Part shown: in pieces, positions 28,320 through 44,042 of the stretch
Position numbering within the stretch: position 1 is the stretch's first letter
Layout of the letters: every line of letters begins with the position of its first letter
Source of the DNA: an uncultured Pelagibacteraceae bacterium
GTDB lineage: Bacteria > Pseudomonadota > Alphaproteobacteria > Pelagibacterales > Pelagibacteraceae
Length of the DNA: 44,042 bases
Reading direction: 5' to 3'
NCBI GenBank assembly: GCA_902601705.1
Contig: CACKNV010000002.1
Coordinates: 1 to 44,042, forward strand
Translations under genes and position numbers: made by a program
Notes under the pieces: model-generated
Database searches by the model: none
What the model saw: the letters and a program-made list of their open reading frames with translations, nothing else
Told to the model about the DNA's origin: nothing

Positions 28320-29246
28320 TTAAGCGTTGACTGCTATTTTAACAGAAGGTTTAATAGCGTTTTTCTTTGAGATTATATGACTCGAATTTTCAATAGAAGA
28401 AAGAATTGAATTATCTTTGAATAACTCTCTTAAAAACATATTTGTTAATTCGTGACCTCCTTGAACACACTTAATTCTTCCGATTACCCTATATCCAGAC
28501 AAAAGGAAGTCACCTGCTAAATCTAAAATTTTATGATTTACAAATTCTTTTTGATTTCTTAGTCCACCATCATTTAAAATTTTATTTTCTTTAACTACTA
28601 TAGCGTTATCAAGAGATCCACCTTTAGCTAGACCGGCTTTTTTAATTCTTTCTATATCCTCAAATAAACAAAAAGTTCTCGAGACACTTACATCTTTCAA
28701 ATCATCTTTTTGAAAATCAACAACATTTTTTTGTTTTCCAATCAATTTATTTTCATAATCTAATTGAAAATCTACCTCTAAGGAATTGTTATTAGGTTCA
28801 ATTGAAATCTTTCTTCTTCCATCCACAAGCTCAAACTTTTTTGAAATTTTCAAATATTTTCTCTTTTCTGAAAGAGTAGTAATTTCTGTGTTTCTTAAAA
28901 TTTTCAAAAACTCTTTAGCTGAACCATCCATTATTGGTACTTCTTCAGAATTTATTTCTACCAAGACGTTGTCAATACCACATATGTAAAATGCCGCTAA
29001 TAAATGTTCTACTGTTGAAACTTTAACTCCGTTTTTATTTTCAAGTGTAGTGCATAATTTTGCCGATGAAACATTTTGAAAGTTAGCTTTAATTAGATTA
29101 TTTTCTTTTAAATCTGTTCTTTTGAAAATTATACCTTCGTTCACTTTCCCAGGGTAAATACATATTTTAGATTGTTGCCCAGTGTGAAGTCCAATACCCT
29201 CAAAATTTACAGGTTTTGCTATTGTTTTTTGAAAATTATTTTGCAT
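28320..29246 (-). CDS. lpxC: UDP-3-O-acyl-N-acetylglucosamine deacetylase
   Basis: Committed step of lipid A synthesis, zinc-dependent. The 308 residues show GIGLHTG near 17-23, the zinc and substrate motif STVEHLLAAFY (His81), GSAKEFL, and the second zinc site HKILDLAGD with FLLSGYRVIG. It implies an outer membrane with lipid A. It follows the ftsA-like gene after 67 bases, a position normally taken by ftsZ. A weak TTGTTT and TATCTA pair in that spacer could be its own promoter. It precedes bamD by 50 bases. Confidence 0.95.
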   Translation of the reverse strand: MQNNFQKTIAKPVNFEGIGLHTGQQSKICIYPGKVNEGIIFKRTDLKENNLIKANFQNVSSAKLCTTLENKNGVKVSTVEHLLAAFYICGIDNVLVEINSEEVPIMDGSAKEFLKILRNTEITTLSEKRKYLKISKKFELVDGRRKISIEPNNNSLEVDFQLDYENKLIGKQKNVVDFQKDDLKDVSVSRTFCLFEDIERIKKAGLAKGGSLDNAIVVKENKILNDGGLRNQKEFVNHKILDLAGDFLLSGYRVIGRIKCVQGGHELTNMFLRELFKDNSILSSIENSSHIISKKNAIKPSVKIAVNA

Positions 29247-29313
29247 CTCGAAACTTATAGATAATTAATGATTTAATCTTAAAACAACTATTATTACTAA
29301 AAATAACAATAAT

Positions 29314-30510
29314 TTAATTAAATATAGCTTCAAAAAATCTTGCTAATATTGATTTTTTTACTTGAGACACTGGTATAGCCTCTTTCCTCCAACCGTATTG
29401 TAATAGGTTATTAGCTGTGTGTAGCATGCTTTCATTGCTTAAGGTATCCAAAAAATTAACTTCTAACGAGTTGTTTGCTGAAAAAACTTTTCTAAATATA
29501 TCTTTCAAACTTTCAAAATGTAACTTGTTTTCTATTTCTAAAAAAACCGTATTTTGCTTACTACTGATACCCTTCAGGTTGATATTCTTAAATATCAATA
29601 TTTCTGATAACTCTTTAATTCTAGCTAATGCTATCTCATAAATTAATTTCTTTTTAATCCTTCTATATTTATCTTGATTAAAAAACTTTTCCTCAATTAG
29701 TTCGTTTTCTAAAATTGCCTCATTGAAATTCATATTTTTAAAAATTGTATTGATATTTTCTTTTTTTAAAAAAGTTATTTTGGTTATATCATTTAAAATT
29801 ATCTCAGATCCAAAATTAAAGCACTGCTCATATTTTAACGAATCATTCTCAAAATAAAAAATTTTTGAATTATTCGAATTCATTTCTAAATGTAAAAAAG
29901 TTTCATTATTTTTACTATTATCACTTATATTTGCACCTTTTATAAAACTTTTGAGAAAGATTTTTTTTATCTTTAAATTTAGATTTGAAAAAATATTTTG
30001 TAAATTTTTATAGTCGTTTGAACTAATTAATGAAAAAGATAATTCATGTGAATATAAATTACCAAAGAGACCAATAGGCAAATTAACTATTGGCTTTTTA
30101 TCTAAAGAAAAACTTGAATTGAAAATATGAAGTATTGTTTTGTTTGACTCATTTCTTTCAACATAGGATTTCAAAGAATTTAAAATATATATAATGTTTT
30201 CTCTTAAAATTTGCGATCCATTTAAAGTTTTATATCCTGACAAATTTAAAAACGTAGGATTAAAGTTTTCAAGAATTAACACTACTTCCTTAAAGGTATA
30301 ATCAAGCTTTTGTTCAATTGAATAAATATTTTCTTTTATGATATTATTAAATTTTTCAAAATTTGATATTCTGTTATCTTCAACTCCAGAAACAGGCAAA
30401 CTTAATTCATTGATTATTTTAATTTCATTACTTTCATTTTTTTTTAAAACAAAAAAAATAAGACTTAAATTGTTTATCTCTAAAAAAAGAGTTAGATCAG
30501 ATTTTTTCAT
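29314..30510 (-). CDS. ftsA: Highly divergent FtsA-like division protein
   Basis: Identified mainly by position, length (398 residues) and remnants of the FtsA layout. FtsA is the actin-like protein that tethers FtsZ to the membrane. Normal nucleotide motifs are not recognisable: the phosphate-1 strand reads LTLFLEINNLSLIFF instead of a DIGTTKV-type loop. The phosphate-2 strand reads TFLHLEMNSNNSKIF (about 204-218) instead of DIGGGTTD. The adenosine loop near 313-318 lacks the GG pair. FNFGSEIILNDITK fits the segment after phosphate-2. The end, KKSILARFFEAIFN, looks like the C-terminal membrane-binding amphipathic helix. It lies three bases after ftsQ. A non-FtsA actin-fold protein cannot be excluded. 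Confidence 0.65.
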   Translation of the reverse strand: MKKSDLTLFLEINNLSLIFFVLKKNESNEIKIINELSLPVSGVEDNRISNFEKFNNIIKENIYSIEQKLDYTFKEVVLILENFNPTFLNLSGYKTLNGSQILRENIIYILNSLKSYVERNESNKTILHIFNSSFSLDKKPIVNLPIGLFGNLYSHELSFSLISSNDYKNLQNIFSNLNLKIKKIFLKSFIKGANISDNSKNNETFLHLEMNSNNSKIFYFENDSLKYEQCFNFGSEIILNDITKITFLKKENINTIFKNMNFNEAILENELIEEKFFNQDKYRRIKKKLIYEIALARIKELSEILIFKNINLKGISSKQNTVFLEIENKLHFESLKDIFRKVFSANNSLEVNFLDTLSNESMLHTANNLLQYGWRKEAIPVSQVKKSILARFFEAIFN

Positions 30511-30513
30511 ATC

Positions 30514-31170
30514 CTATTTTAAAATGAGTTGATTTTCTATCCTATAATCAAATACTTTATAATTTTCAAAATTTTTTTTAGTTCTTAAATTTAAATAATT
30601 TTTTAAACTTTTGACATAATTATTTGTAGGAAGTTTAATTACTTTTTGATTTATTGTTTCAATATCCCATCTGTTTGACTCATATAATGTATATTTATTA
30701 ATAATCTCAAGAGGAAAATTTATCTCATTTAAATTATTGTAAAAAATTTTAAATTTTTTTTCCTCTCCTAAGACAAGTGGAAGTTTTCGATATTTTTTAG
30801 AATTATTAAATTCAATTAAATCAAGTTTTTCACTTAAAAGGTATTTTTTTTTTTTATTTTGAAGAATAGCTATTGGTTTTTTTTCAACGATATTAATTTT
30901 TAATGTGCTAGGGTATTTCTTTTTAATGTTAAAACTTTCAATAAAGGTTTTTTTTGATAATTTGTCCTCAATTTCCCTGTAATTTAGATTTACTAAATTT
31001 TTATTGTAAATTGGTTTGAGGGATTCAATTATATCCTCTGTCTCGAGCAATAAATTATTTTCTATTATTATTTCTTTTATATTAAATTTTGAAATAATTA
31101 TTTCTTGTTTTGAGGTAATAGTAGTTAACAAAATAAATAAGATGAATGCAATAATTGATCTTTTTTTCAT
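30514..31170 (-). CDS. ftsQ: FtsQ-like division protein
   Basis: Bitopic inner-membrane protein of the divisome that binds FtsB and FtsL. The 218 residues have a short cytoplasmic start, one membrane helix (about 4-20) and a POTRA domain (about 28-95) with FNIKEIIIENNLLLETEDII and KKYPSTLKINIVEKKPIAIL. The FtsQ/DivIB beta domain (about 97-200) follows. The cytoplasmic tail is shorter than in typical alphaproteobacteria. It overlaps ddl by four bases (ATGA). POTRA plus location support the call, though overall similarity is low. Confidence 0.82.
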   Translation of the reverse strand: MKKRSIIAFILFILLTTITSKQEIIISKFNIKEIIIENNLLLETEDIIESLKPIYNKNLVNLNYREIEDKLSKKTFIESFNIKKKYPSTLKINIVEKKPIAILQNKKKKYLLSEKLDLIEFNNSKKYRKLPLVLGEEKKFKIFYNNLNEINFPLEIINKYTLYESNRWDIETINQKVIKLPTNNYVKSLKNYLNLRTKKNFENYKVFDYRIENQLILK

Positions 31171-32105
31171 CTATTAACACTTGCGTCTAGAAGAATTTTT
31201 TCAACTAAATTATTAAAAGTTAAACCCTTATAACTGGCAATTTCTGGTACTAAAGAAAGATTGGTCATTCCAGGTTGCGTGTTTAATTCTAACAGGTAAA
31301 ACACATTGTTTAAAAATTTAAAGTCCGATCTCGTAACCCCTCTACAACCTAAAATGTGATGTGATTTATTTGCGATTTTTAAAACTTCTTGATATTTTTT
31401 TTTTGTTAATCTTGCTGGCATCACATGTTTTGTTTTTGCCTTTTTTGTGTACTTGGCTTTATAATCATAAAATAATCTTTTAGGAATAAGTTCTATTGCA
31501 CCAAGTGGTTTACCATTTATTACAGCTACCTGAATTTCTTGCCCACCAATATATTCCTCAAGCAATAATTCACCATATTTTTTAAATTGAGATTGGATCG
31601 ATCTTAATAATTTTACTTTGTTATCACAAACTTTTACACCTAAGCTAGATCCCTCATTTATTGGCTTTGAAACTATTGGAAATTTAATTTTTTTATTCAT
31701 AATATTTTCCAAAAGAAATCTTTTATTAAAATTTTTTTTATTTATTACTAAAAATTTAGGGGTTTTTATTTTGTGTTTAATAAAAATTTCTTTTGAGTGG
31801 ATTTTATTCATTGAATTAAATGAACTAATTACACCTGAATGTGTATATGGAATATTCAAATACTCAAAATAACTTTGAGCAACTCCATCTTCGCCATCTC
31901 TACCATGTAATGCATTGAAAATAACATCTACATTTTTTTTATTAATTAAATTAAAATTTTTTATTTTAGGATCAAAAGTTGAGACCTTATATCCTTTTTC
32001 TTTAAGGGCTTGAATGCAGGCTCTACCACTTTCTAAACTTACAGCTCGTTCACCTGATGTGCCACCTAAAACAACTAAAACATTTTTAAATTTTTTTTTA
32101 CTCAC
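31167..32105 (-). CDS. ddl: D-alanine--D-alanine ligase
   Basis: ATP-grasp ligase making D-Ala-D-Ala for the peptidoglycan stem. The 312 residues begin with VLVVLGGTSGERAVSLESGR (substrate loop Glu). FNALHGRDGEDGVAQ, FPIVSKPINEGSSLGV (ATP site) and EEYIGGQEIQVAV follow. The terminal metal and substrate loop is CRGVTRSDF with ELNTQPGMTNLSLVPE. It overlaps murB by eight bases and ftsQ by four, so the whole set is tightly coupled. Confidence 0.95.
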   Translation of the reverse strand: MSKKKFKNVLVVLGGTSGERAVSLESGRACIQALKEKGYKVSTFDPKIKNFNLINKKNVDVIFNALHGRDGEDGVAQSYFEYLNIPYTHSGVISSFNSMNKIHSKEIFIKHKIKTPKFLVINKKNFNKRFLLENIMNKKIKFPIVSKPINEGSSLGVKVCDNKVKLLRSIQSQFKKYGELLLEEYIGGQEIQVAVINGKPLGAIELIPKRLFYDYKAKYTKKAKTKHVMPARLTKKKYQEVLKIANKSHHILGCRGVTRSDFKFLNNVFYLLELNTQPGMTNLSLVPEIASYKGLTFNNLVEKILLDASVNR

Positions 32106-33003
32106 CGATTATTTTAATCTCTAATTCAAGATTTACCCCCGTTTTTTCAAATACTTTTTGTTTTACTTTTTTAATTAAATTTTCAATATCTCTCGCTGTA
32201 GCATTGCCGTTGTTTACGAAAAAATTACAGTGTTTATGTGAAATAGATGCATCGCCCTCTGTGAACTGCTCACAACCAGCTTGTTTAATCAACATCCAGG
32301 CTTTTTTTTCCTCACTTAAATTTTTAAAAGTACTTCCACATGTTTTAATTTGACTTGGTTGTGAAAGTTTTTTTCTTTCAATCAAATCTGATTGCTTTTT
32401 TTCTATCTCAGCTTTATTTCCAATCAAACCCTTAAGTTTTGCTGATATAATAATTAAATTTTCTGCCAAATCAGTTCCTCTATATAAAAACTTAATATCA
32501 TCTCTATTAATCTCTATTTCTTTTAAATTGTTTATATCTATAGCCTTAATAGATAATAAAACTTTTGAAATATCGTTGTTATAACAGCCGCTATTCATTA
32601 CTATTCCTCCTCCTACTGATCCTGGTATACAAGATAGAAACTCTAAATTTTTTAAATTATTATCTTTTGCAAAATTTGCTATTTGACGATCTAAAGTTGC
32701 TGCGCCAGCATCTATCACATCTTTTTTAAGCAGTTTAATATAGGAAAAGTCTTTCCCTAACTTTATAACTGCTCCAGAAACACCATTATCTCTAAACAAT
32801 GTATTTGATCCAGCACCTAAAATTGTTAATTTTAAGTTTCTTTTTTTAATTTCTGCTAGAAATTCCAATAATTGCTCCTTGTTATTGGCCTTAAAGAAAT
32901 ACTCTGCATTTCCACCTAGATTGAACCAACTATAGTTAGAAAGATTAACGTTAACATTTAATGTATCTCCAAATTTTTTAAGTAAATTATCTGCTAGCTT
33001 CAT
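32098..33003 (-). CDS. murB: UDP-N-acetylenolpyruvoylglucosamine reductase
   Basis: FAD enzyme that reduces enolpyruvyl-UDP-GlcNAc to UDP-MurNAc. The 301 residues are a type II-like short MurB. FAD-binding motifs are LGGNAEYFFKA, LGAGSNTLFRDNGVSG and SCIPGSVGGGIVMNSGCY. The catalytic Ser lies in KTCGSTFKNLSE, and the end carries FVNNGNATARDI and the conserved Glu in LELEIKIIGE. Overlaps murC by four bases and ddl by eight. Confidence 0.95.
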   Translation of the reverse strand: MKLADNLLKKFGDTLNVNVNLSNYSWFNLGGNAEYFFKANNKEQLLEFLAEIKKRNLKLTILGAGSNTLFRDNGVSGAVIKLGKDFSYIKLLKKDVIDAGAATLDRQIANFAKDNNLKNLEFLSCIPGSVGGGIVMNSGCYNNDISKVLLSIKAIDINNLKEIEINRDDIKFLYRGTDLAENLIIISAKLKGLIGNKAEIEKKQSDLIERKKLSQPSQIKTCGSTFKNLSEEKKAWMLIKQAGCEQFTEGDASISHKHCNFFVNNGNATARDIENLIKKVKQKVFEKTGVNLELEIKIIGE

Positions 33004-34397
33004 AATGAAAATTTCAATCTAGCCATCCATTTTGATATAGCGCCAGCTCCCATACCAATTATTAATTCATTACTTACTAAGTTTTTTTGAAAAAATTTAG
33101 TAAGTTCTACTTCATTTTTAACTATTAAAACTTGCGTTTTAGAATTTTTAGCAATCAAATTCGCAAAATTAATTGGATTATATTTTAAATTTCTTTTTTC
33201 CCCAGCAGCGTATAATGGGCACATAATTACCAAGTTTGATTTAATAAAACACTTTGAAAATTCATTTTTTAATGACATCACTCTTGAATATCTATGAGGT
33301 TCAAAGACACTTATGATTTTTCTTTTAAGATTTACTTTTTGAACACCTTCTAAAATAGAGCTTATTTCAGTCGGATGATGAGCATAATCATCGTAAAAGT
33401 CATTATTATTTTTAGAAAAAACTTTAGTCATTCTTCTTTGAACTCCTGAGAAATTTTTTAAAGATTTCTTAGCTAAATTTAAATTTGCACCTAAGTTAAT
33501 ACACACTATTAAAGCTGCTGCTGAATTAAGAATATTATGTTTTCCTAATAATTTTACATTAATATTTTTAATACTCTGAGCCTTTTTTTGTTTATCTTTA
33601 AATTTTAAAGTGAATGAAGTGCTATCAAAATTATATTTAATTTTTTTAATTTGATAATCTGCCTTTTTATTTTCGCCATACGTTACAATATTTTTGTTCT
33701 TTATTTTATACAATATTTTTCTAATGTTATTATTATCTAAACAAATTATCGACTTTCCAGTTGGAGGCGTTTTATTTATAAAATTAATAAATGAATTTTC
33801 TAAATTTTTGTATTTTTTGTAAAAGTCTAAGTGTTCATAATCTATATTTGTTACAATTGAGTAGTTAATCGGTAATTTTAAAAAACTCCCATCTGACTCA
33901 TCAGCCTCCAATATTGCCCAGTCTCCTTTTCCAAGTTTTGCGTTGTTTTTTAGGGAATTGATAACTCCACCATTAATTATAGTAGGATCTAATTTTTGAT
34001 CCGATAGTATTTTTGCAACTAATGAGGTTGTTGTAGTTTTTCCATGTGATCCGGTAATAATTATATTCTTTTTTAGTGATACAACGTCTGCTAACACTTC
34101 TGCTCTTGAATAGATTGGTATTTTATTTTTTTTTGCGTATTTTAATTCTGGATTATTATTTTTAATCGCACTAGACTTTACTAAAATTGTAGCTCTTTTT
34201 ATATTATTAGATAAATGACCAATAAAAACTTTAATGCCTGATTTTTGGCAATTGATAGTATTTTTATTTTTGTTTTGATCGCTCCCCTGAATTTTAAAAC
34301 CCATATTTTGCATTATTTGAGCAAGACCACTCATCCCGATGCCTCCAATACCTACAAAATGGATTATATCTTTCTGAACTAAATTAATTTTTTCCAT
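33000..34397 (-). CDS. murC: UDP-N-acetylmuramate--L-alanine ligase
   Basis: Adds L-Ala to UDP-MurNAc. The 465 residues show the N-terminal UDP-binding HFVGIGGIGMSGLAQI, the ATP loop TGSHGKTTTTSL (about 115-126), the metal-site EADESDGSF and NIDYEHLDFY. The C-terminal domain carries DDYAHHPTEI and FEPHRYSR. These are MurC-specific (HHPTE). It overlaps murG by 14 bases and murB by four. Confidence 0.96.
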   Translation of the reverse strand: MEKINLVQKDIIHFVGIGGIGMSGLAQIMQNMGFKIQGSDQNKNKNTINCQKSGIKVFIGHLSNNIKRATILVKSSAIKNNNPELKYAKKNKIPIYSRAEVLADVVSLKKNIIITGSHGKTTTTSLVAKILSDQKLDPTIINGGVINSLKNNAKLGKGDWAILEADESDGSFLKLPINYSIVTNIDYEHLDFYKKYKNLENSFINFINKTPPTGKSIICLDNNNIRKILYKIKNKNIVTYGENKKADYQIKKIKYNFDSTSFTLKFKDKQKKAQSIKNINVKLLGKHNILNSAAALIVCINLGANLNLAKKSLKNFSGVQRRMTKVFSKNNNDFYDDYAHHPTEISSILEGVQKVNLKRKIISVFEPHRYSRVMSLKNEFSKCFIKSNLVIMCPLYAAGEKRNLKYNPINFANLIAKNSKTQVLIVKNEVELTKFFQKNLVSNELIIGMGAGAISKWMARLKFSL

Positions 34398-35466
34398 TTA
34401 TAATTTCCTCAATTTGAATATTTAAATTTCTAAAGATATCTTTGTCAGAATATTGTCTTTGTTTTAATAAAATATTGTTAACAAGTGATTTATCATTAAA
34501 TATTGAGTTTATAAGAGCAAATAATTTACTATTTATATCTTTTTCCTCTAATAAATATCCGTAACCTTTTTTTTCATAAAACTCAGCATTTTTGTGCTGA
34601 TGGTTATCGGCTGATGAGGGAAGAGGAATTGAGATAAAAGGTATCTTCATATTAATTAACTCCCCCAAAACAGAGGCACCTGATCGCGTGATAACTAAAT
34701 TTGCTTCAGAATAATATTTACTTATTTTTTCAGTAAAATTAAATATCTCAAAATTTATCTCAGCGTTTTTATAAAACTGTGATAATTGACTGTTTTGTTC
34801 TTTTTGGCATTGTTGATAAATCTTGAGAGGAATATTAGAATTTTTTAATTGTGCAAAAACTTGAGGAAGTTGATCAGCAAAAATCTTAGCTGCTTGGCTT
34901 CCTCCAAGAACCAAAATTTTTAAATGATCAAAATTTTTTTTAATATCACGTTCATTTATTATCTCCTCTCTTACTAAATTTCCTATTTCAAAAATCTTAT
35001 TTTTATACTTTTTAGAAATTCCCTCGAGCTCTTTATAAGAAACAAATATTTTTTTTGCAAAAAATAGTAAGTATTTATTTGCTTTTCCAATAATCAAATT
35101 ATTCTCATATATAACAAATTTTATTCTTAAGATTGATGCAGCTATACATATTGGGAAAGAGGAGTAACCACCCATTCCAAAAACAATAGAGGGTCTTTCA
35201 AATAAAAGTAAAAAAAATGATCTGGCTATTGAATAAATAATTACTAAAAAAGAAAATAATAATTTTAAGATATTTCCTTTTGCTAATGGTGAAGAGGGTA
35301 TTTTTACAATATTAAGATTTTTAATATTCTTTAGGTATTTAAGACCTCTATAGTCAGATGTTAATTTTACATTGTATTTTTTTCTTATCAAATAATTTGC
35401 AAGACTATATGCAGGGAAAATATGCCCGCCGGTTCCTCCAGTAGCAATTAATATTTTTTTAGTCAT
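34384..35466 (-). CDS. murG: MurG, undecaprenyl-PP-MurNAc-pentapeptide GlcNAc transferase
   Basis: Makes lipid II from lipid I at the cytoplasmic face of the membrane. The 360 residues have the GT-B fold marks: the N-terminal glycine loop TGGTGGHIFPAYSLA (9-23), FGMGGYSSFPICIAA, and YENNLIIGKANKYL. The donor-site segments are LVLGGSQAAKIFADQLP and ITRSGASVLGELINMKIPFI with PLPSSADNHQHKNAEF. Hydrophobic patches around 70-87 fit membrane binding. Overlaps ftsW by eight bases. Confidence 0.95.
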   Translation of the reverse strand: MTKKILIATGGTGGHIFPAYSLANYLIRKKYNVKLTSDYRGLKYLKNIKNLNIVKIPSSPLAKGNILKLLFSFLVIIYSIARSFFLLLFERPSIVFGMGGYSSFPICIAASILRIKFVIYENNLIIGKANKYLLFFAKKIFVSYKELEGISKKYKNKIFEIGNLVREEIINERDIKKNFDHLKILVLGGSQAAKIFADQLPQVFAQLKNSNIPLKIYQQCQKEQNSQLSQFYKNAEINFEIFNFTEKISKYYSEANLVITRSGASVLGELINMKIPFISIPLPSSADNHQHKNAEFYEKKGYGYLLEEKDINSKLFALINSIFNDKSLVNNILLKQRQYSDKDIFRNLNIQIEEIINGKN

Positions 35467-36586
35467 ATAAGTATGCTTTGTTTTTAGTATAATTCAAAAT
35501 TATCCCAGCTAAAATTGCACTTCCAATTAAAGATGATCCACCATAACTTAAAAAAGGCAAAGTCATTCCAGTCGTTGGTAATAAATTAATGTTAACCCCT
35601 GCATGGATAAATGTTTGAAAAATCATAAGTGTTGCTAATCCAATTAAAGAAATTTTTAAGAATTGATTATCTTGATTAAAACAATTTTTAATTATTCTGA
35701 AAGAAATATACAAAAAAATTACTAATATCATTATTGAAACAATTGACCCATACTCTTCAGATATAACAGCTATAACATAATCAGTGTGGGCCTCAGGCAC
35801 ACTCTCTTTTAAAATACCCTCTCCCATACCTTGACCAGTCAGCCCACCAAGTTTTATCGCATCAAGAGCAGAGGAAGACTGAAATTTGTCACCTTGGCTA
35901 GGATCGAAAAATGCAATTAATCTTTTAGTTATATATCCAAATTTCTCTGGGAAAAAAAATAAAATTGAAGTCAGTGAAGCTAAAAATATTGAAAAAAAAA
36001 TAAACATGTAAACTAAACTAACTCCAGATATAAAAACAGTCGCTACCCAACTTCCCACTAATAAAATTGATTGACCCAAATCAGGTTGGTCAATTAGTAA
36101 GATTAGAACAGAGCTTAAAATAATAAAGCTAAAGAAATATTTTATTTGTGTCTTCTTTAGTCTCTCAAAAGTTAATATTTTTACTGTTATTAAAATAAAG
36201 AAAGGTTTTACTATCTCGATAGGCTGCAACCTAAAGAAATAAAAATCAAGCCAACGTTTAGCACCCTTAGCCTCTACTCCAATTATAGGTACCAATGCTA
36301 AAAAAATAAAAGTAATTATAAATGATGGTACAACAAGTTTTATAAGTAATTCAGTTTTAATTAGTGAAATTACAATCATGAAACCAAGAGCTAGAAATGT
36401 AAAAAAAAGATGTTTTGTAAAAAAAAAATAATAATCTTTATTAAGCCTCTCGCCTGCAAGGGATGAGGTAGAGGAAAATGAAAAAAATAAACCTAAAAAA
36501 AATAAAATTAAGAAACAAAATAAAATTTTTTTATCTAAGCTTCTCCAATAATTAATAAATAAAAATTTAAATGTATTTTCTGCCAT
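35459..36586 (-). CDS. ftsW: FtsW, SEDS-family peptidoglycan polymerase
   Basis: Septal glycan polymerase that works with FtsI. From ATG 36586 (MAENTFKFLFINYWRSLDKK) the product is 375 residues with about ten membrane helices. SEDS motifs are visible: FSFSSTSSLA, GAKRWLDFYFFRLQPIEIVK with DQPDLGQSILL, and the catalytic-loop region DAIKLGGLTGQGMGEGILKE with PEAHTDYVIAVISEE. NLLPTTGMTLPFLSYGGSSL lies near the end. The frame is open to 36646, which would give a longer overlap with murD; even the chosen start overlaps murD by 20 bases. Confidence 0.93.
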   Translation of the reverse strand: MAENTFKFLFINYWRSLDKKILFCFLILFFLGLFFSFSSTSSLAGERLNKDYYFFFTKHLFFTFLALGFMIVISLIKTELLIKLVVPSFIITFIFLALVPIIGVEAKGAKRWLDFYFFRLQPIEIVKPFFILITVKILTFERLKKTQIKYFFSFIILSSVLILLIDQPDLGQSILLVGSWVATVFISGVSLVYMFIFFSIFLASLTSILFFFPEKFGYITKRLIAFFDPSQGDKFQSSSALDAIKLGGLTGQGMGEGILKESVPEAHTDYVIAVISEEYGSIVSIMILVIFLYISFRIIKNCFNQDNQFLKISLIGLATLMIFQTFIHAGVNINLLPTTGMTLPFLSYGGSSLIGSAILAGIILNYTKNKAYLYD

Positions 36587-37844
36587 AAATTTTGCATAAC
36601 CTTTTAAATTCTTCACCTCGCTTTTCAAAATTTTTAAATTGGTCAAAAGATGCTGCGGCTGGACTTAATAAAATATTATAATGTGAGTTTTTGTGTACTC
36701 TGCAGTCTTTAAATATCTGAATAATTGAATCTTTTAAATTTTTTGTCGATGAATAGACTAATTTACCTTTTAATTGTTTTTTAAAAAAATTAATGTTTTG
36801 CCCAATTAAATAACATTTAATAATATTTTTCTTAAATCTTGAAATTTTAATTTTGTCACCTTTTTTTGGCAATCCACCTAGTATCCAGAAAATACTTTTT
36901 AAACTTGATAAAGCTAATTGTGTTGATTTAAAAGAGGTAGCCTTTGAGTCGTTTATAAAAGTAAAATTTTCTTTTTTCAGAAATATTTCAAATCTGTGTG
37001 GTAAACCTTTAAATGAACCCATTGCGTCTATAAAAGATTTTTTACCTACCTTAATTAATTTTGCAAATGCATAAACAAAACTCATATTTTCGTCATTAAT
37101 ATTCGACTCCAAATAATCATTTTTGATTTTATTTTTAATTTTTTTATATTCTTTTTCTGAAGGTAAAGTGAGTTTACTTAAGAAACCTTTTCTTTTAAAA
37201 ATCTTTTTAAATTTTTTATTTACAATTGCATAATGATTTTTATCTTGATGTTGAAAAATTTTAAGTTTGGAATTTAAATAGTTTTTCTTATTTCCATGCC
37301 AATCAAGATGATCATTTGATAAATTAAGAAAAAATGCAAAATTTGGACGAATAAATTTTGAATGTGAAAGTTGAAAAGATGAGGCCTCGATAATTATAAG
37401 TTCGTTGTTTGAATTTTTTATGTCTAAAATTGGAGTCCCTATATTCCCACCAAGTGAGTATTTTATCTTATTAATTTTTAAAAGATGAGCTATCAGTTTA
37501 CAAGTTGTAGACTTCCCGTTAGTTCCAGTAATAACAATACTTTTTAAATCTTTATTTGAAAGATAAAGCAAATCTATATCTGTAATTATCTTTTTTTTAA
37601 ATTTAAAAAGTTTTTTATTTTTTAATAAACTTATCCCCGGCGCTAAAACAATATAATCAACTCTAATTAAAGTTTTTTTTAAATTTTTTGTTCTTAAATT
37701 TTTATATAATTTTTTTTCTTTGTCATCCCAAACTTGAAAGTTATTTATTCTATTTTTTTTAAAAAATTTAACTACTGAACATCCAGATAAACCTAGACCA
37801 TAAACAAGGAACGATAGTTCTTTGAGTTTAGGATTTTGGAGCAT
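36567..37844 (-). CDS. murD: UDP-N-acetylmuramoyl-L-alanine--D-glutamate ligase
   Basis: Adds D-Glu to the growing stem. The 425 residues have the N-terminal VYGLGLSGCSVVKFF loop, the ATP loop VITGTNGKSTTCKL (104-117), and LGGNIGTPILD. NLSNDHLDWHGN (metal-binding His) and NDSKATSFKSTQLAL with WILGGLPKKGD complete the set. These are MurD hallmarks. It lies three bases after mraY and overlaps ftsW. Confidence 0.95.
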   Translation of the reverse strand: MLQNPKLKELSFLVYGLGLSGCSVVKFFKKNRINNFQVWDDKEKKLYKNLRTKNLKKTLIRVDYIVLAPGISLLKNKKLFKFKKKIITDIDLLYLSNKDLKSIVITGTNGKSTTCKLIAHLLKINKIKYSLGGNIGTPILDIKNSNNELIIIEASSFQLSHSKFIRPNFAFFLNLSNDHLDWHGNKKNYLNSKLKIFQHQDKNHYAIVNKKFKKIFKRKGFLSKLTLPSEKEYKKIKNKIKNDYLESNINDENMSFVYAFAKLIKVGKKSFIDAMGSFKGLPHRFEIFLKKENFTFINDSKATSFKSTQLALSSLKSIFWILGGLPKKGDKIKISRFKKNIIKCYLIGQNINFFKKQLKGKLVYSSTKNLKDSIIQIFKDCRVHKNSHYNILLSPAAASFDQFKNFEKRGEEFKRLCKIYGRKYI

Positions 37845-37847
37845 TCT

Positions 37848-38933
37848 TTACCTTAATTTTAATGTTGCTAATCCGATCAATGCTAAAATTATAGCTATTA
37901 TCCAAAATCTAATTACTATAGTTGACTCAGCCCACCCTTTTTTTTCGAAATGATGATGTATCGGTGCCATTCTAAAAATTCTTTTACCAGTCAATTTATA
38001 AGACGCTACCTGAATAATTACTGATACTGTTTCTAAAACAAATAAACCTCCAACGATAGCCAAGACAATTTCATGTTTAACGATTATTGCAATTGCTGCT
38101 AACGAGCCTCCTAAAGAAAGAGAACCAGTGTCTCCCATAAAAATTTTTGCCGGAGGAGCATTATACCAAAGAAATCCTAAACAAGCGCCAACGATCGAGC
38201 CACAAAAAATTGATAATTCTCCTACATCAGGAATGTATTGGATCTGCAAATATTCAGAAAAAATTGTATTACCTACTACGTAAGAAATTAAAGTAAATGA
38301 AAGTGCCACTAACATTACAGGTACTGTAGCGAGTCCATCTAAACCGTCAGTTAGGTTAACAGCATTAGAAGCTCCGATAATTACAAACAGCCCAAATGGT
38401 ATAAAAAATAAACCCATATGCCATATTAAATTTTTAAAAAAAGGAAAATAGAGGTTATACAAAAATTCATGTTCTGAATATTTTATTAATATTAATAATG
38501 TTATTACGCCTATTATAATCTGACCAAGAAACTTATATCTTGATTTTAATCCACTGGAATTCTTTAATTTAATTTTCAATATATCGTCAAGTAATCCCAA
38601 AGCGCCTAACGACAGTGAGACAAAAATTAATGTCCATACATAAATATTTTTCAAATCTGCCCATAAAATTGTACTACTTATAATTCCAATAATTATAATT
38701 ACACCTCCCATTGTTGGTGTTCCAGATTTTTTAATAATATGATCTATTGGACCATCTTGTCTTATTGGGCCAGTTATCATTTTTTCTGAAAAAAATTTTA
38801 TTAAAGGACCCCCAATAATAAATACTACCATCAAGGACGTCACAACAGATAAGCCTGTTCTGAAAGTTAAGTATCTAAATACGTTTAAAAACGAATATTG
38901 ATCAATTAGTGAAGTTAACAAACTAAATAACAT
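37848..38933 (-). CDS. mraY: Phospho-MurNAc-pentapeptide transferase MraY
   Basis: Integral membrane enzyme making lipid I. The 361 residues carry about ten helices and the family motifs GPLIKFFSEKMITGPIRQDG, KSGTPTMGGV, and GLLDDILKIKLKNSSGL. The catalytic NLTDGLDGLATVP, MGDTGSLSLGG and APIHHHFEKKGWAES (the HHH motif) are all present. It abuts the murE-murF fusion (next base) and precedes murD by three bases, the usual order. Confidence 0.97.
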   Translation of the reverse strand: MLFSLLTSLIDQYSFLNVFRYLTFRTGLSVVTSLMVVFIIGGPLIKFFSEKMITGPIRQDGPIDHIIKKSGTPTMGGVIIIIGIISSTILWADLKNIYVWTLIFVSLSLGALGLLDDILKIKLKNSSGLKSRYKFLGQIIIGVITLLILIKYSEHEFLYNLYFPFFKNLIWHMGLFFIPFGLFVIIGASNAVNLTDGLDGLATVPVMLVALSFTLISYVVGNTIFSEYLQIQYIPDVGELSIFCGSIVGACLGFLWYNAPPAKIFMGDTGSLSLGGSLAAIAIIVKHEIVLAIVGGLFVLETVSVIIQVASYKLTGKRIFRMAPIHHHFEKKGWAESTIVIRFWIIAIILALIGLATLKLR

Positions 38934-41696
38934 TTATGTTCCCCTTATCATTTTTTTACTAAAATTGTTAAGTCCAGTAGCATTAGATCCTTTAATCATA
39001 AGACAATCATTATTGCATATGATCTCTCTCAAACTTAAATCTATATCTTCAATATTATGTAAAATATTTCCTCTTTTTTCTTTTTTTAAATGTTTATAAG
39101 TGAAAATTGTTTTTTTTCCTTTTACGAAAACTTTATCTATATCAGAGTTGTTAATAACTTTTGACAATTCTTCATGGTATTTTTTTGAATGAGGACCTAA
39201 TTCAAGCATGTCTCCAAGGATTAAGTATTTTTTTAAATTTGTTTTTTTTATCAATTTTAATTTGTTGATAGCATTTTTTACAGACAATGGATTAGCATTA
39301 TAACTTTCATCGATTAATTGAAATCTTTTATTGTATCTCGAAATTTGATATTTTTTCCCTCTACCATCTGGAGATTCTAGGTATTTAAATTTTGATATTA
39401 TTCTTAAAAAATTTATTTTTAATGCTTTAAGAACACATAGAGAAGCTAGAATGTTATAAACATTTAAATCTTTATATCTAAAAGAAATAATCTGGTTATT
39501 AATATTAATATAAATCTTTGAAAATACTTTTCCTTTAATAATTCTGATCAAACGAATATCTGATTTTGTGTGTTTGCCAAAAGATAAAGTATTTAAATTA
39601 TATGATCTTGCTTTCTTTAATAAATAATTAAAAAACTTATCATCTCTATTTAAAACAATCGTTCCCCCTGGTTCAATATTTTCAATAATTTCTGATTTAG
39701 CTTTTGCTATTCCTCGAATATTTTTAAAATTTTCTATATGTGCCTCTCCAATATTAGTAATGACACCTAAGTGTGGTTTAATTAAATTTGTGAGTTTTCT
39801 TATCTCACCAAATTTACTCATTCCTACTTCAAAGACAGCAAATTTATTGTTAATACTTAAATTTGATAGACTAACAGGCACTCCATAATGATTATTGAAA
39901 GACCTTGGTGAGAAATGAGTTTTTCCAAAACTACTTAAAAGATCTTTGAGTAAATTTTTTAAAGATGTCTTTCCCGCACTTCCAGTAATTGAAATTATTT
40001 TTGCATGCGTATGTTCTCTTTTTAGCTTTCCGAAATGACTAAGAAATTTAATTGGATTTTGGACTTTTATAATTTTATTTTTATAACCTTTAATAGCAGA
40101 TGAAGAAATGATTCCTCCAGCACCTTTTTTTATTGCGTCTTTAATAAATCTATTTCCGTCATTTTTTTTTCCTTTAAATGCAACAAATAAATTATTTTTT
40201 TTTAAAGTTCTTGAGTCGATAGAAAGACCATTTATTTTTCGAAATTTTAGTTTACCAAAAATTTTATTTAAAATAATTTCATTTTGTAAATAATTTTGTT
40301 TTTTTTCTGATAACTTACCAAGACCAATTTTTATTTTCTTAACAATTTTTTTGTCGGAAATATTATAAATTTTATTTTTATAAATTTGTTTTTGTTCATG
40401 TCCTTTGCCAGCAATTAAAAGAATATCAAAAGGACTAGCATCTTTTATTGCTTTTTTAATAGCTCGAGATCTATCTCCAATATCAAAATATTTATTTTTT
40501 GAAATATATTTTGCAAGCTGATCTCTAATTTTTTTTGGATTTTCATTTCTAGGATTGTCGTCAGTAATATAAATTTTTTTACAATTATCATTAGCTATTT
40601 TTGCCATTAAGCGCCTTTTTTTCTTGTCTCTATCACCCCCGCATCCAAAAACTAAAGAAACATTGTTTCCGTAATCTTTTTTTAAAGATTGAATAACTTT
40701 TAATAATGCATCTGGTGTATGAGCATAATCAATAAATACTTTTAAATTATTTTTATATTTTTTCGCTAATTCAAGTCTTCCGTTGACATCTTTGATTTTC
40801 TTGCAAGAGGAGAATATTAAACTTTCTTTTAATCCACATAGTTTTGCTGATTGGATCGCCATAGCTAAATTCTTGATTTTGAAATCATTAGATGTATTTA
40901 AAAATGTATTATTAATTATATTTATCTCTTTTTCTATATCTATTAGTTTAAGTTTTTTTTGCTGTGCAATCCTACTTAAAAATTTAAAAGGTTTAATTTT
41001 TTTGTCAGAGATTATAGTAGAATTTTTATGTAAGATTTCTTTGAACAATATAAGTTTTGAATTTAAATAAGATTTCATACTTTTATGATAATCTAAATGG
41101 TCCTGGCTAAAATTTGTAAAAACCCCAGCTTTAAATTTAATATTGTGAAGTCTCTTTTGATCTAAGCCATGACTTGATGCTTCGATGATTACATTGTCGA
41201 TATCTTTCTTTTTGAGATAATTTAAATATTTATGAAGGCTAATTGTGTCTGGTGAAGTAAGATTAGTCTTTATAATTTTATTGCGATATTTAATCCCAAA
41301 AGTTCCAATAGAGGCTACAGGAATATTACTTATTGTTAGTATTTGGTAAAATAAATCAGCTACTGAAGTCTTTCCATTAGTCCCAGTAACTGCAATAATA
41401 TTTTTTGGTTTATAAGTATAAAATTTCGAGCATATTTCACTCAAGAAAAATCTAATATCATCTGTTTTAATTACTAAAATATTTTTCGATTTAAAATTAC
41501 ATGTTTTTGAACAAATGACAACTTTTGCACCTCGCTTAATAGCCTCTTTAATAAATTTTTCACCGTTAATTTTGTTACCTTTAATAGCAAAGAATATATT
41601 ATTTTTTTTAACCTCTTTGCTATTAACTGAAATTCCAGAAATAATAATATTTTTTAAATTACTTGGAACAAATCTAATTAAATTTTTCAACAACAT
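38934..41696 (-). CDS. murE-murF: Fused MurE-MurF ligase (UDP-MurNAc-tripeptide and pentapeptide synthases in one chain)
   Basis: A single 920-residue frame holding two complete Mur ligases. The MurE half (1 to about 460) has the ATP loop VTGTNGKTSVADL (103-115), SSHGLDQ, NFSQDHLDYH and DYAHTPDALL. DDNPRNENP follows (DNPR at 380-383, the meso-diaminopimelate specificity motif), then AGKGHEQKQIY. A linker near 460-485 leads to the MurF half, with SIDSRTLKKNNLFVAFKG, the ATP loop TGSAGKTSLK (571-580), SFNNHYGVPVSL, EVGMSKFGEI, NIGEAHIE and DESYNANPLSV. The two reactions are non-consecutive neighbours of D-Ala-D-Ala addition, so the fusion may channel the UDP-tripeptide. It overlaps ftsI by 23 bases. 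Confidence 0.95.
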   Translation of the reverse strand: MLLKNLIRFVPSNLKNIIISGISVNSKEVKKNNIFFAIKGNKINGEKFIKEAIKRGAKVVICSKTCNFKSKNILVIKTDDIRFFLSEICSKFYTYKPKNIIAVTGTNGKTSVADLFYQILTISNIPVASIGTFGIKYRNKIIKTNLTSPDTISLHKYLNYLKKKDIDNVIIEASSHGLDQKRLHNIKFKAGVFTNFSQDHLDYHKSMKSYLNSKLILFKEILHKNSTIISDKKIKPFKFLSRIAQQKKLKLIDIEKEINIINNTFLNTSNDFKIKNLAMAIQSAKLCGLKESLIFSSCKKIKDVNGRLELAKKYKNNLKVFIDYAHTPDALLKVIQSLKKDYGNNVSLVFGCGGDRDKKKRRLMAKIANDNCKKIYITDDNPRNENPKKIRDQLAKYISKNKYFDIGDRSRAIKKAIKDASPFDILLIAGKGHEQKQIYKNKIYNISDKKIVKKIKIGLGKLSEKKQNYLQNEIILNKIFGKLKFRKINGLSIDSRTLKKNNLFVAFKGKKNDGNRFIKDAIKKGAGGIISSSAIKGYKNKIIKVQNPIKFLSHFGKLKREHTHAKIISITGSAGKTSLKNLLKDLLSSFGKTHFSPRSFNNHYGVPVSLSNLSINNKFAVFEVGMSKFGEIRKLTNLIKPHLGVITNIGEAHIENFKNIRGIAKAKSEIIENIEPGGTIVLNRDDKFFNYLLKKARSYNLNTLSFGKHTKSDIRLIRIIKGKVFSKIYININNQIISFRYKDLNVYNILASLCVLKALKINFLRIISKFKYLESPDGRGKKYQISRYNKRFQLIDESYNANPLSVKNAINKLKLIKKTNLKKYLILGDMLELGPHSKKYHEELSKVINNSDIDKVFVKGKKTIFTYKHLKKEKRGNILHNIEDIDLSLREIICNNDCLMIKGSNATGLNNFSKKMIRGT

Positions 41697-43395
41697 GCTG
41701 GTTAGTAAATTCTTTGTTATTTATGGCTAAAATTGGCCCAATTTTTTCTATCATTTTGCCTGCTACATAAACAGCGTTCCAACCAGATGTATTATAAGGG
41801 GCTTTAGTCTTAACGCCTCTATAATCGTAAATTAGATTTTTGTTAATTTTGGGATTTTCTAGCATTACAAATAAAGTGTACTTAGGTCTATTAGATGGAA
41901 AAATAGATATAAATGTGTTAATTCTATTTTTTTTATTACCATAACTTTCTGCTGTACCAGTTTTTCCGCCTACATAGTATCCGTTTGTATCAGCTAAGCT
42001 AGCAGTTCCATCTTTGCTGCTAACAACCTTTCTTAATATATTCCTTAATTGATAACTAGTTTCTTCACTTATAATTTTATTTTTTTTCTGTATTATTCTA
42101 TCCTTTACTAAACTAGGTGTAATTAATTTCCCCCCATTAACCATTGCAGCGTATAATGCTGTAGCTTGTAAAGGTGTTGTAGTAATACCATGACCAAATG
42201 ATATGGTCTCTAATTTACATCTATTCCATTTTAAGTTATGTGGTGTACCAACTTCTTCAAGCTCAATAGATGGATTTTTAGTTAGATTTGTTTTTTTTAT
42301 AAAATCTTCATATTTTTGCTTACCTATTTTTTTTGCTAATATAACTGAACCGACATTTGAAGATCTTACTAAAATTTCTTCTATAGATAAATCTTTTGGA
42401 TGTTGCTTCATATCTGTAATTTCATAAATTGAACATTGAATTTTTTTAGGTATGTTCTCAATTATTGTAGTTGTATCTACTAAATTATGATCAAGTGCTA
42501 GTGCAATGGTAAATGTCTTAAAAATTGATCCAAGCTCGTATATGCCTTTTGTGATTTTGTTAATATATTTTTTATCGATTATATTTGTTCTTATATTAAT
42601 ATTAAAATTAGGAAGTGATACTAAAGAAATAATATCTCCATTATTTACATCCATCAATAACGCTCCTGCTCCAGTAGCGTCAAATGTCTCAATAGCATTC
42701 TTTAATTCCTTATTGATGACGTATTGAATATTACTGTCTAAAGTAAGTTTTAAAGGTTGATTTAAAAGATCTTTTTTTTTTAGCTCTTTATCAAAATATT
42801 TTTCTATACCCGAAACACCATAATTATCGTAATCAACTTGTCCAATTATATGACTAAATAAGTTTCCATGGGTATACATTCTCGCCTGAAAGGGCTCAAA
42901 TTTTATACCTTTTTCCCCTAACGCCCAGAATTTTTCTTTTTCAATTTGATTAATCCTTTTCTTTATACGAAAATATTTTTTTTCATTAATTTGCTTTTCT
43001 ACTTTTTCAAAAGGTAAATTTGGGAAATTTAATCTTAATTTAATTAAAAAATTCTTTTTATCTTTTATTAATTTTGGGTCTATTGCTGCGTGAAAGGTAT
43101 TAACGTTTCTTGAAATGATTATTCCATTTCTATCAACAATATCTCTTCTTAATAAGGTAAATTTATTTTCTTGCTCTTTAAAATTGAAAATATCTTTCTT
43201 ATCTAAAGATACATAGGTGATTTTAATTGAAAAAATTAACACTAAAGAAAAAAAGAAAAAAAACAATAAATAAATTCTATCCTCAAAGTTATTAAACTTT
43301 TGAATTTTTTTCTTTTTATTATTTGACTCTAAAAAATCTTCAAAAAAAAAGCTTGTTTGGTTAGTATTGTTATTTTTTTTCAATTTTTTTTTCAT
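41674..43395 (-). CDS. ftsI: FtsI (PBP3), septal peptidoglycan transpeptidase
   Basis: Class B penicillin-binding protein that crosslinks septal wall with FtsW. The 573 residues comprise a basic cytoplasmic start, one membrane helix (about 42-60), a pedestal domain with RRDIVDRNGIIISRNV, and the transpeptidase domain. The active-site motifs are SIFK (Ser290), SSN (345-347) and KTG (478-480, in VGGKTGTAESYG). Its ATG overlaps the ftsL-like stop by 26 bases, and its end overlaps the murE-murF start by 23. It is standard for the dcw cluster. Confidence 0.95.
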   Translation of the reverse strand: MKKKLKKNNNTNQTSFFFEDFLESNNKKKKIQKFNNFEDRIYLLFFFFFSLVLIFSIKITYVSLDKKDIFNFKEQENKFTLLRRDIVDRNGIIISRNVNTFHAAIDPKLIKDKKNFLIKLRLNFPNLPFEKVEKQINEKKYFRIKKRINQIEKEKFWALGEKGIKFEPFQARMYTHGNLFSHIIGQVDYDNYGVSGIEKYFDKELKKKDLLNQPLKLTLDSNIQYVINKELKNAIETFDATGAGALLMDVNNGDIISLVSLPNFNINIRTNIIDKKYINKITKGIYELGSIFKTFTIALALDHNLVDTTTIIENIPKKIQCSIYEITDMKQHPKDLSIEEILVRSSNVGSVILAKKIGKQKYEDFIKKTNLTKNPSIELEEVGTPHNLKWNRCKLETISFGHGITTTPLQATALYAAMVNGGKLITPSLVKDRIIQKKNKIISEETSYQLRNILRKVVSSKDGTASLADTNGYYVGGKTGTAESYGNKKNRINTFISIFPSNRPKYTLFVMLENPKINKNLIYDYRGVKTKAPYNTSGWNAVYVAGKMIEKIGPILAINNKEFTNQHVVEKFN

Positions 43396-43708
43396 TTAAA
43401 TCTCTTAGATTTGTTATTTTGTTTTCCATTTTAATAAAATCAGAAATCGTATAAAATATTTTAGAATGTTCAATCGGTTGATAATTATTAAATCCAATAA
43501 TATTTAATTTATTTTCTATCTCTTTAGGTGATGTTAAATAATAAAAATCTAGTTGAGTCTCATTTAGATCTTTCTCTTTTGAAAAAATTTTAGTTTTCAA
43601 ATTGTAAATTTGTTTTTCGATTACCCTTGTTTTATTTTTAATTATAGATGTGATAATCAGAAAAATTAAAAAAACCAATAAAGATGCTATCAACTTAGTT
43701 TTAAACAT
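43370..43708 (-). CDS. ftsL: FtsL-like small division protein
   Basis: A 112-residue bitopic protein: one membrane helix at about 6-24 and a coiled-coil-like stretch with heptad hydrophobics (VIEKQIYNLKTKIFSKEKDL) up to about 60. A short region with LTSPKEIENKLNIIGF resembles the FtsL end, and a charged tail follows. FtsL sequences are poorly conserved, so the call rests on architecture and the rsmH-ftsL-ftsI position. It overlaps rsmH by eight bases and ftsI by 26. Confidence 0.75.
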   Translation of the reverse strand: MFKTKLIASLLVFLIFLIITSIIKNKTRVIEKQIYNLKTKIFSKEKDLNETQLDFYYLTSPKEIENKLNIIGFNNYQPIEHSKIFYTISDFIKMENKITNLRDLNEKKIEKK

Positions 43709-44042
43709 TTATAGCCTCCAAATTTAAATATTTTTGAAACTTTTCAATAAATTTTTGAGGGTGCTCAAATTTATCTTTATTTCTTATTGCGAATCTTAAT
43801 TTGGCAGATCGTGATCTATTATTAATTGAAATTTCTTTTTTTGAGGGTCTGATTACTTTATTTTTGTACTCTTCAAATAAAACTAACTCTTCAGAATTAC
43901 TTTCTGGGAAATATCTAGAGGATTTTGCCTTATTTTTAGAATAATTAGAAAAAAAATATTTGATTATTCTATCCTCTAATGAGTGAAAGCTAATAACCAA
44001 AATTTTACCACCTGGTTTCAATTTTTTAGTTGCATTTATAAT
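43701..44042 (-). CDS. rsmH: 16S rRNA C1402 N4-methyltransferase RsmH (C-terminal part; 5' end outside window)
   Basis: Methylates N4 of C1402 in the ribosomal P site. The frame is open through base 44042, so only the last 113 residues are here. The RsmH C-terminal signature is clear: LKPGGKILVISFHSLEDRII, then RPSKKEISINNRSRSAKLRF. The gene is the first in this strand's dcw run as seen here, and mraZ or other upstream genes would lie off the right edge. Overlaps the ftsL-like gene by eight bases. Confidence 0.93.
   Translation of the reverse strand: MINATKKLKPGGKILVISFHSLEDRIIKYFFSNYSKNKAKSSRYFPESNSEELVLFEEYKNKVIRPSKKEISINNRSRSAKLRFAIRNKDKFEHPQKFIEKFQKYLNLEAINV

Follow-up and report, generated by a model that had tools for sequence, protein, structure and literature searches.

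A relocated ftsZ at the dcw cluster head in a SAR11 lineage with a divergent FtsA

In the SAR11 lineage considered here, the cell division gene ftsZ has not been lost; it has moved to the head of the division and cell wall (dcw) cluster. The window, i.e., the whole stretch of 44,042 bases that was analysed, covers positions 1-44042 of contig C2 in a draft genome of 1.08 Mb (15 contigs, 94.85% complete). An intact ftsZ coding for 495 amino acids lies on the minus strand of the same contig at C2:44730-46217, 688 bases beyond the right end of the window, and is the single match to the tubulin family in the whole genome. Its product is recognized as a GTPase-domain protein by PF00091 (163.6 bits, cut-off 33, E 6.6e-49) and scores 118.4 bits against the C-terminal domain PF12327; it carries the GGGTGTG motif and the T7-loop NLDFAD, and keeps the C-terminal docking peptide EIPAFLRKQ in the tail DFEIPAFLRKQKF. 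All these features are shared with known FtsZ proteins, and only the place of the gene differs. The protein is at most 86% identical to the FtsZ of the named uncultured Pelagibacteraceae loci, on which the assignment of the window to SAR11 is based. The gene is flanked by mraZ (C2:46217-46678, minus strand, also outside the window) and rsmH, and is read from the same strand as the rest of the cluster, which runs mraZ-ftsZ-rsmH-ftsL-ftsI-murEF-mraY-murD-ftsW-murG-murC-murB-ddl-ftsQ-ftsA-lpxC-bamD. The original prediction, made from the window, was that ftsZ had moved elsewhere or been lost; the move stands, while the loss, and with it a division system without FtsZ, is refuted by this gene, and the whole-genome search for FtsZ that the prediction proposed thus reduces the finding to a relocation. 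The explanation that best fits the data as a whole, and which we consider very probable, is a relocated ftsZ in a cell that divides by an ordinary FtsZ ring.

Within the window, gene calls and a domain scan bear out the described order on the minus strand of ftsQ, an ftsA-like gene, 67 gene-free bases and lpxC. In particular, the 3' part of rsmH (mraW; 43701..44042) is cut at the window edge and is followed by ftsL, ftsI, a fused murE-murF, mraY, murD, ftsW, murG, murC, murB and ddl (together 31167..43708), where murD, mraY, ftsI and ftsL are named from sequence and place without a domain scan. Then come ftsQ (30514..31170; PF08478 and PF03799), a divergent ftsA coding for 398 residues (29314..30510), assigned by homology and place, and lpxC (28320..29246; PF03331, E 3.5e-94), all on the minus strand. 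The ftsA-lpxC junction (29247..29313) is 84% A+T and is the place of ftsZ in most alphaproteobacteria examined. The tubulin-type motif was rightly described as missing from the window, as a six-frame search of its 44,042 bases gave no GGGTG[TS]G. Compared with the known alphaproteobacterial dcw cluster, the genes, their order from rsmH to lpxC and the single strand are shared; the difference is that ftsZ stands between mraZ and rsmH and ftsA directly before lpxC.

The comparison with other SAR11 genomes that had been suggested for this junction gave lengths of 50-73 bases in 80 of 93 entries, some genomes being counted twice. The junction is therefore not peculiar to the assembly of the window. 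The other 13 measure -32 to 41 bases, which is put down to start-codon choice as a whole and not case by case. Within the window's family, 148 genomes were searched, with an ftsZ match in 137, an lpxC match in 140 and both in 131. Both genes lie on one contig in 101 of these 131 genomes; in all 101, lpxC is encoded downstream of ftsZ on the same strand, and the starts of the two matches are 15.6-17.9 kb apart. In the other 30 they are on separate contigs. The gene mraZ adjoins ftsZ in all 12 named uncultured Pelagibacteraceae loci (L063-L073, L077), and rsmH comes next in all 11 loci that extend beyond ftsZ. Two clusters of f2, which together with f1 makes up the SAR11 families sampled, could be read end to end (L106, L107) and have the same layout. 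Taken together, the layout in 101/101 family genomes and 2/2 f2 clusters points to an old relocation and not to an assembly gap, and since it is common to f1 and f2, the move would be older than their split, as far as the samples reach. Against this reading, an ftsZ match is missing in 11 of the 148 family genomes, two of which (G122, G176) are more than 90% complete, and in one of 16 relatives (G039, 98% complete); all of these genomes are drafts of at least 20 contigs.

These results decide between relocation and its two rivals. A loss of ftsZ, with division in its absence, would agree with the window, where no ftsZ is found, but an intact copy 688 bases further along the same contig makes this reading exceedingly improbable. 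It is just as improbable that the assembly has dropped an ftsZ truly present at the junction: the genome is indeed a draft of 15 contigs, but a like junction recurs in the 80 of 93 SAR11 entries, which come from independent genomes and include single-contig ones, and the one ftsZ match of the window's own genome sits elsewhere. Both rivals were rejected on the own-contig gene, the 80 junctions and the layout found in 101/101 family genomes.

The order ftsQ-ftsA-ftsZ-lpxC had been taken as widely kept in the class, and this was confirmed. Searches with the FtsA and the FtsZ protein family each covered 192 class genomes, and the places of both ftsA and ftsZ were among the matches listed for 126; ftsZ follows ftsA on the same strand within 1.5 kb in 116 of these 126, a sample that leans to canonical FtsA because the FtsA matches listed are the best-scoring ones. 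Among the same 126, ftsZ is 1.6 and 4.0 kb downstream of ftsA in two genomes, 308 kb away in one, on a different contig in six, and, in one (G348), on the opposite side of ftsA at a distance of 14 kb. In this last genome, of another family, the cluster (L201, G348:C12:93000-112000) reads mraZ-rsmH-ftsZ-ftsI with ftsA adjoining lpxC, and is another, comparable move of ftsZ to the cluster head. The ftsZ loci of Rickettsiales and other alphaproteobacterial MAGs (L074-L095), several of them on short contigs, mostly have no other dcw match nearby, and ftsZ seems to stand apart from the dcw cluster in most of them too. An FtsZ match is missing in 7 of the 192 class genomes. These include G246 and G345, which belong to one genus, measure 0.9 Mb and are 99-100% complete, and whose FtsA-profile matches are weak (E 7.9e-25 and 2.0e-22); they, rather than the window's genome, may be genuine cases without FtsZ.

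The gene at 29314-30510 is FtsA, an assignment made by homology over most of its length and by its place after ftsQ. The protein aligns end to end with an FtsA profile (hhalign probability 97.6%, 388 columns), and a 15-row profile matches the PDB FtsA 7q6d at E 2e-19, the PDB FtsA chains ranging from E 2e-19 to 8.5e-06. It scores well under the curated cut-offs of TIGR01174 (93.1 bits against 175.85) and PF02491 (20.6 against 25.4), and PF14450 gave no match at E 0.1. On the minus strand, residues 11-16 (EINNLS, 30463..30480) align to the E. coli phosphate-1 motif E14-K19 with loss of the glycine, residues 209-215 (EMNSNNS, 29866..29886) to the phosphate-2 motif from D210 onward, and R297 (29620..29622) to E. 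coli R300. By alignment, the C-terminal helix KKSILARFFEAIFN (29317..29358, minus strand) is the presumed membrane anchor. Its hydrophobic moment is weakly above that of shuffled tails, 57 of 500 of which reach the value (E. coli 15/500); the corresponding counts in genus g7 are 113/500 for a short-form and 141/500 for a long-form example. An AlphaFold2 model of the protein alone was uninformative (pLDDT 34). Before the helix, residues 373-380 form a GWxxEAxP motif that has no counterpart in the aligned E. coli FtsA and whose G373, W374, E377, A378 and P380 are invariant in 15/15 aligned FtsAs of g1, the genus of the window, and g5.

Loss of the nucleotide motifs was followed across SAR11 by profile alignment of its FtsA groups to 30 class FtsAs and that of E. 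coli. The 88 sequences counted comprise f1 genera g6 and g8-g13 (18), f2 (11), the long form of g7 (15), g5 (10) and g1 (34, the remaining g1 matches being outside the alignment); repeat genomes (L033, L105) and fragments (L061, L118, L121) were dropped, L133 was kept out of the motif counts and the tree, and L127 out of the tree. In that order of groups, position E14 is acidic in 18/18, 9/11, 15/15, 10/10 and 31/34; G16 is kept in 18/18, 1/11, 15/15, 1/10 and 1/34, D210 in 18/18, 8/11, 12/15, 0/10 and 1/34, and G212 in 18/18, 0/11, 14/15, 3/10 and 5/34. The phosphate-2 glycine G214 is kept in none of the 88, and T215, as T or S, only in 1/10 of g5 and 3/34 of g1 (0/18, 0/11 and 0/15 in the others). 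G336 is kept in 18/18, 11/11 and 15/15 of the first three groups and in 0/34 of g1, the position being unaligned in g5. R300 is kept in all 88 full-length SAR11 FtsAs aligned. Apart from the acidic residue at E14, little is thus left of the nucleotide pocket in g1 and g5. With known FtsA, the protein of the window shares the place after ftsQ, the length, the SHS2 (1C) region, the arginine at R300 and an aligned, presumed C-terminal helix; in g1 and g5 the phosphate-1 glycine, the phosphate-2 and the adenosine motifs are largely lost.

Judging from these sequences, FtsA of g1 is probably a functional adaptor that has become independent of nucleotide. R300, which we take to be part of the FtsZ-binding surface of FtsA, drew no literature in our search. 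The FtsA of the window may bind the C-terminal peptide of FtsZ, the conserved arginine at R300 being what is seen of this contact. Division probably proceeds via an ordinary FtsZ ring; the 2B surface of FtsA would dock the FtsZ tail and the C-terminal helix would hold the membrane without an ATP-driven switch. G16, D210, G212 and G336 remain in just 1, 1, 5 and 0 of the 34 g1 proteins, yet R300 is found in 34/34. These losses also count against a less likely reading, put at about one chance in a few, in which FtsA still binds ATP through altered motifs and is fast-evolving but mechanistically ordinary. In its favour, and against ATP independence, the acid at E14 is kept in 31/34; moreover, G16, G212 and G336 are retained in other SAR11 genera though all lack G214, so that a changed loop can persist. 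That FtsA is functionless and on its way to a pseudogene is highly unlikely: motifs and domains are indeed lost stepwise across genera, and a g7 genome (G110) reads only 174 residues, but the reading frames are intact, of near-constant length and fixed in place, and dN/dS is 0.15-0.16 in three g1 FtsA pairs, indicating purifying selection, and 0.18-0.32 in the best 8 of 13 short-form pairs of g7 (those above 75% identity).

A further reduction is present in g7, 54 genomes of which are in the family sample. A gene can be read at the ftsQ-lpxC place in 48, the other six lacking a readable FtsA (contig ends; G126 left out). The readable FtsAs include 15 long ones of 368-391 residues and 33 short ones of 174-244, mostly 232-236, which differ from known FtsA by the absence of a single internal stretch of some 150 residues in the g7 alignment. 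This stretch begins immediately ahead of the phosphate-2 motif and ends a short way ahead of the C-terminal helix, and corresponds, as we understand FtsA anatomy, to the actin subdomains 2A and 2B. The direct match of the short form to canonical FtsA is weak (hhalign probability 71.6%, E 3.5e-05, residues 51-210), and its homology follows from matching the profile of the long forms at E 4.1e-22 to 8.8e-8, from the g7 alignment and from its place. Neither another copy of FtsA nor a separate 2A-2B fragment turned up in the six short-form genomes searched, five in a single contig and one in five contigs; in all six the long-form profile matched only the short gene at this place. In a tree of LpxC and Ddl, the long and short forms of g7 are interleaved and g1 is split in two, while two changes are required in a tree built on the FtsA columns in common; in both, several nodes are weakly supported.

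PMC7613929 places the longitudinal contact of FtsA filaments at IIA-IIB and has the tail of FtsN bind in the cleft between IA and IC. We tentatively propose, at somewhat under even chances, that the actin fold of SAR11 FtsA has been dismantled in steps, giving an ATP-independent pseudo-actin in g1 and g5 and, in g7, a half-actin made of 1A, 1C and the C-terminal helix, without the filament-forming and FtsZ-docking half. The acid kept at E14, the weak hydrophobic-moment signal of the helix and the weak direct match of the short form to canonical FtsA speak against this picture. The FtsZ tail of g7 is the canonical EIPAFLRRQ in 19/19 genomes read, of which 10 have the short FtsA and 9 the long one, and probably still binds something; we infer that short-form g7 uses another FtsZ tether. 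SepF was rejected as such an alternative, being absent from 19/19 genomes searched, with a control that matched in 7 of 14 known genomes. SPOR matches were found in 6/15 genomes, five of them over the cut-off, and no SPOR or FtsN-like protein in the window's own genome; the SPOR proteins begin, by eye, like lipoproteins and thus lend no support to an FtsN link.

Neither the move of ftsZ nor the decay of FtsA came up in a literature search on FtsA, FtsZ and dcw order in SAR11 or Pelagibacter, among the titles and abstract openings of the matches listed. SAR11 cells are among the most numerous in the ocean. For the lineage of the window, division without FtsZ is struck off, and the position of ftsZ at the dcw head in both SAR11 families sampled provides a clean marker of gene order. 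FtsA, decaying step by step, offers a natural test of whether it needs ATP and actin-like filaments, and of how the Z ring stays held at the membrane in cells whose FtsA lacks the FtsZ-binding half. In the excerpt of PMC2877005, Pelagibacter is mentioned only for its missing ctrA.

The cluster also differs among SAR11 genera in its Mur ligases. In the window, murE and murF are fused in one gene coding for 920 residues (38934-41696, minus strand) with two sets of Mur ligase domains. The remaining g1 clusters and both g7 clusters that were read also have the fusion, and murE and murF are separate in g11 (L195), g8 (L196), g13 (L197) and f2.
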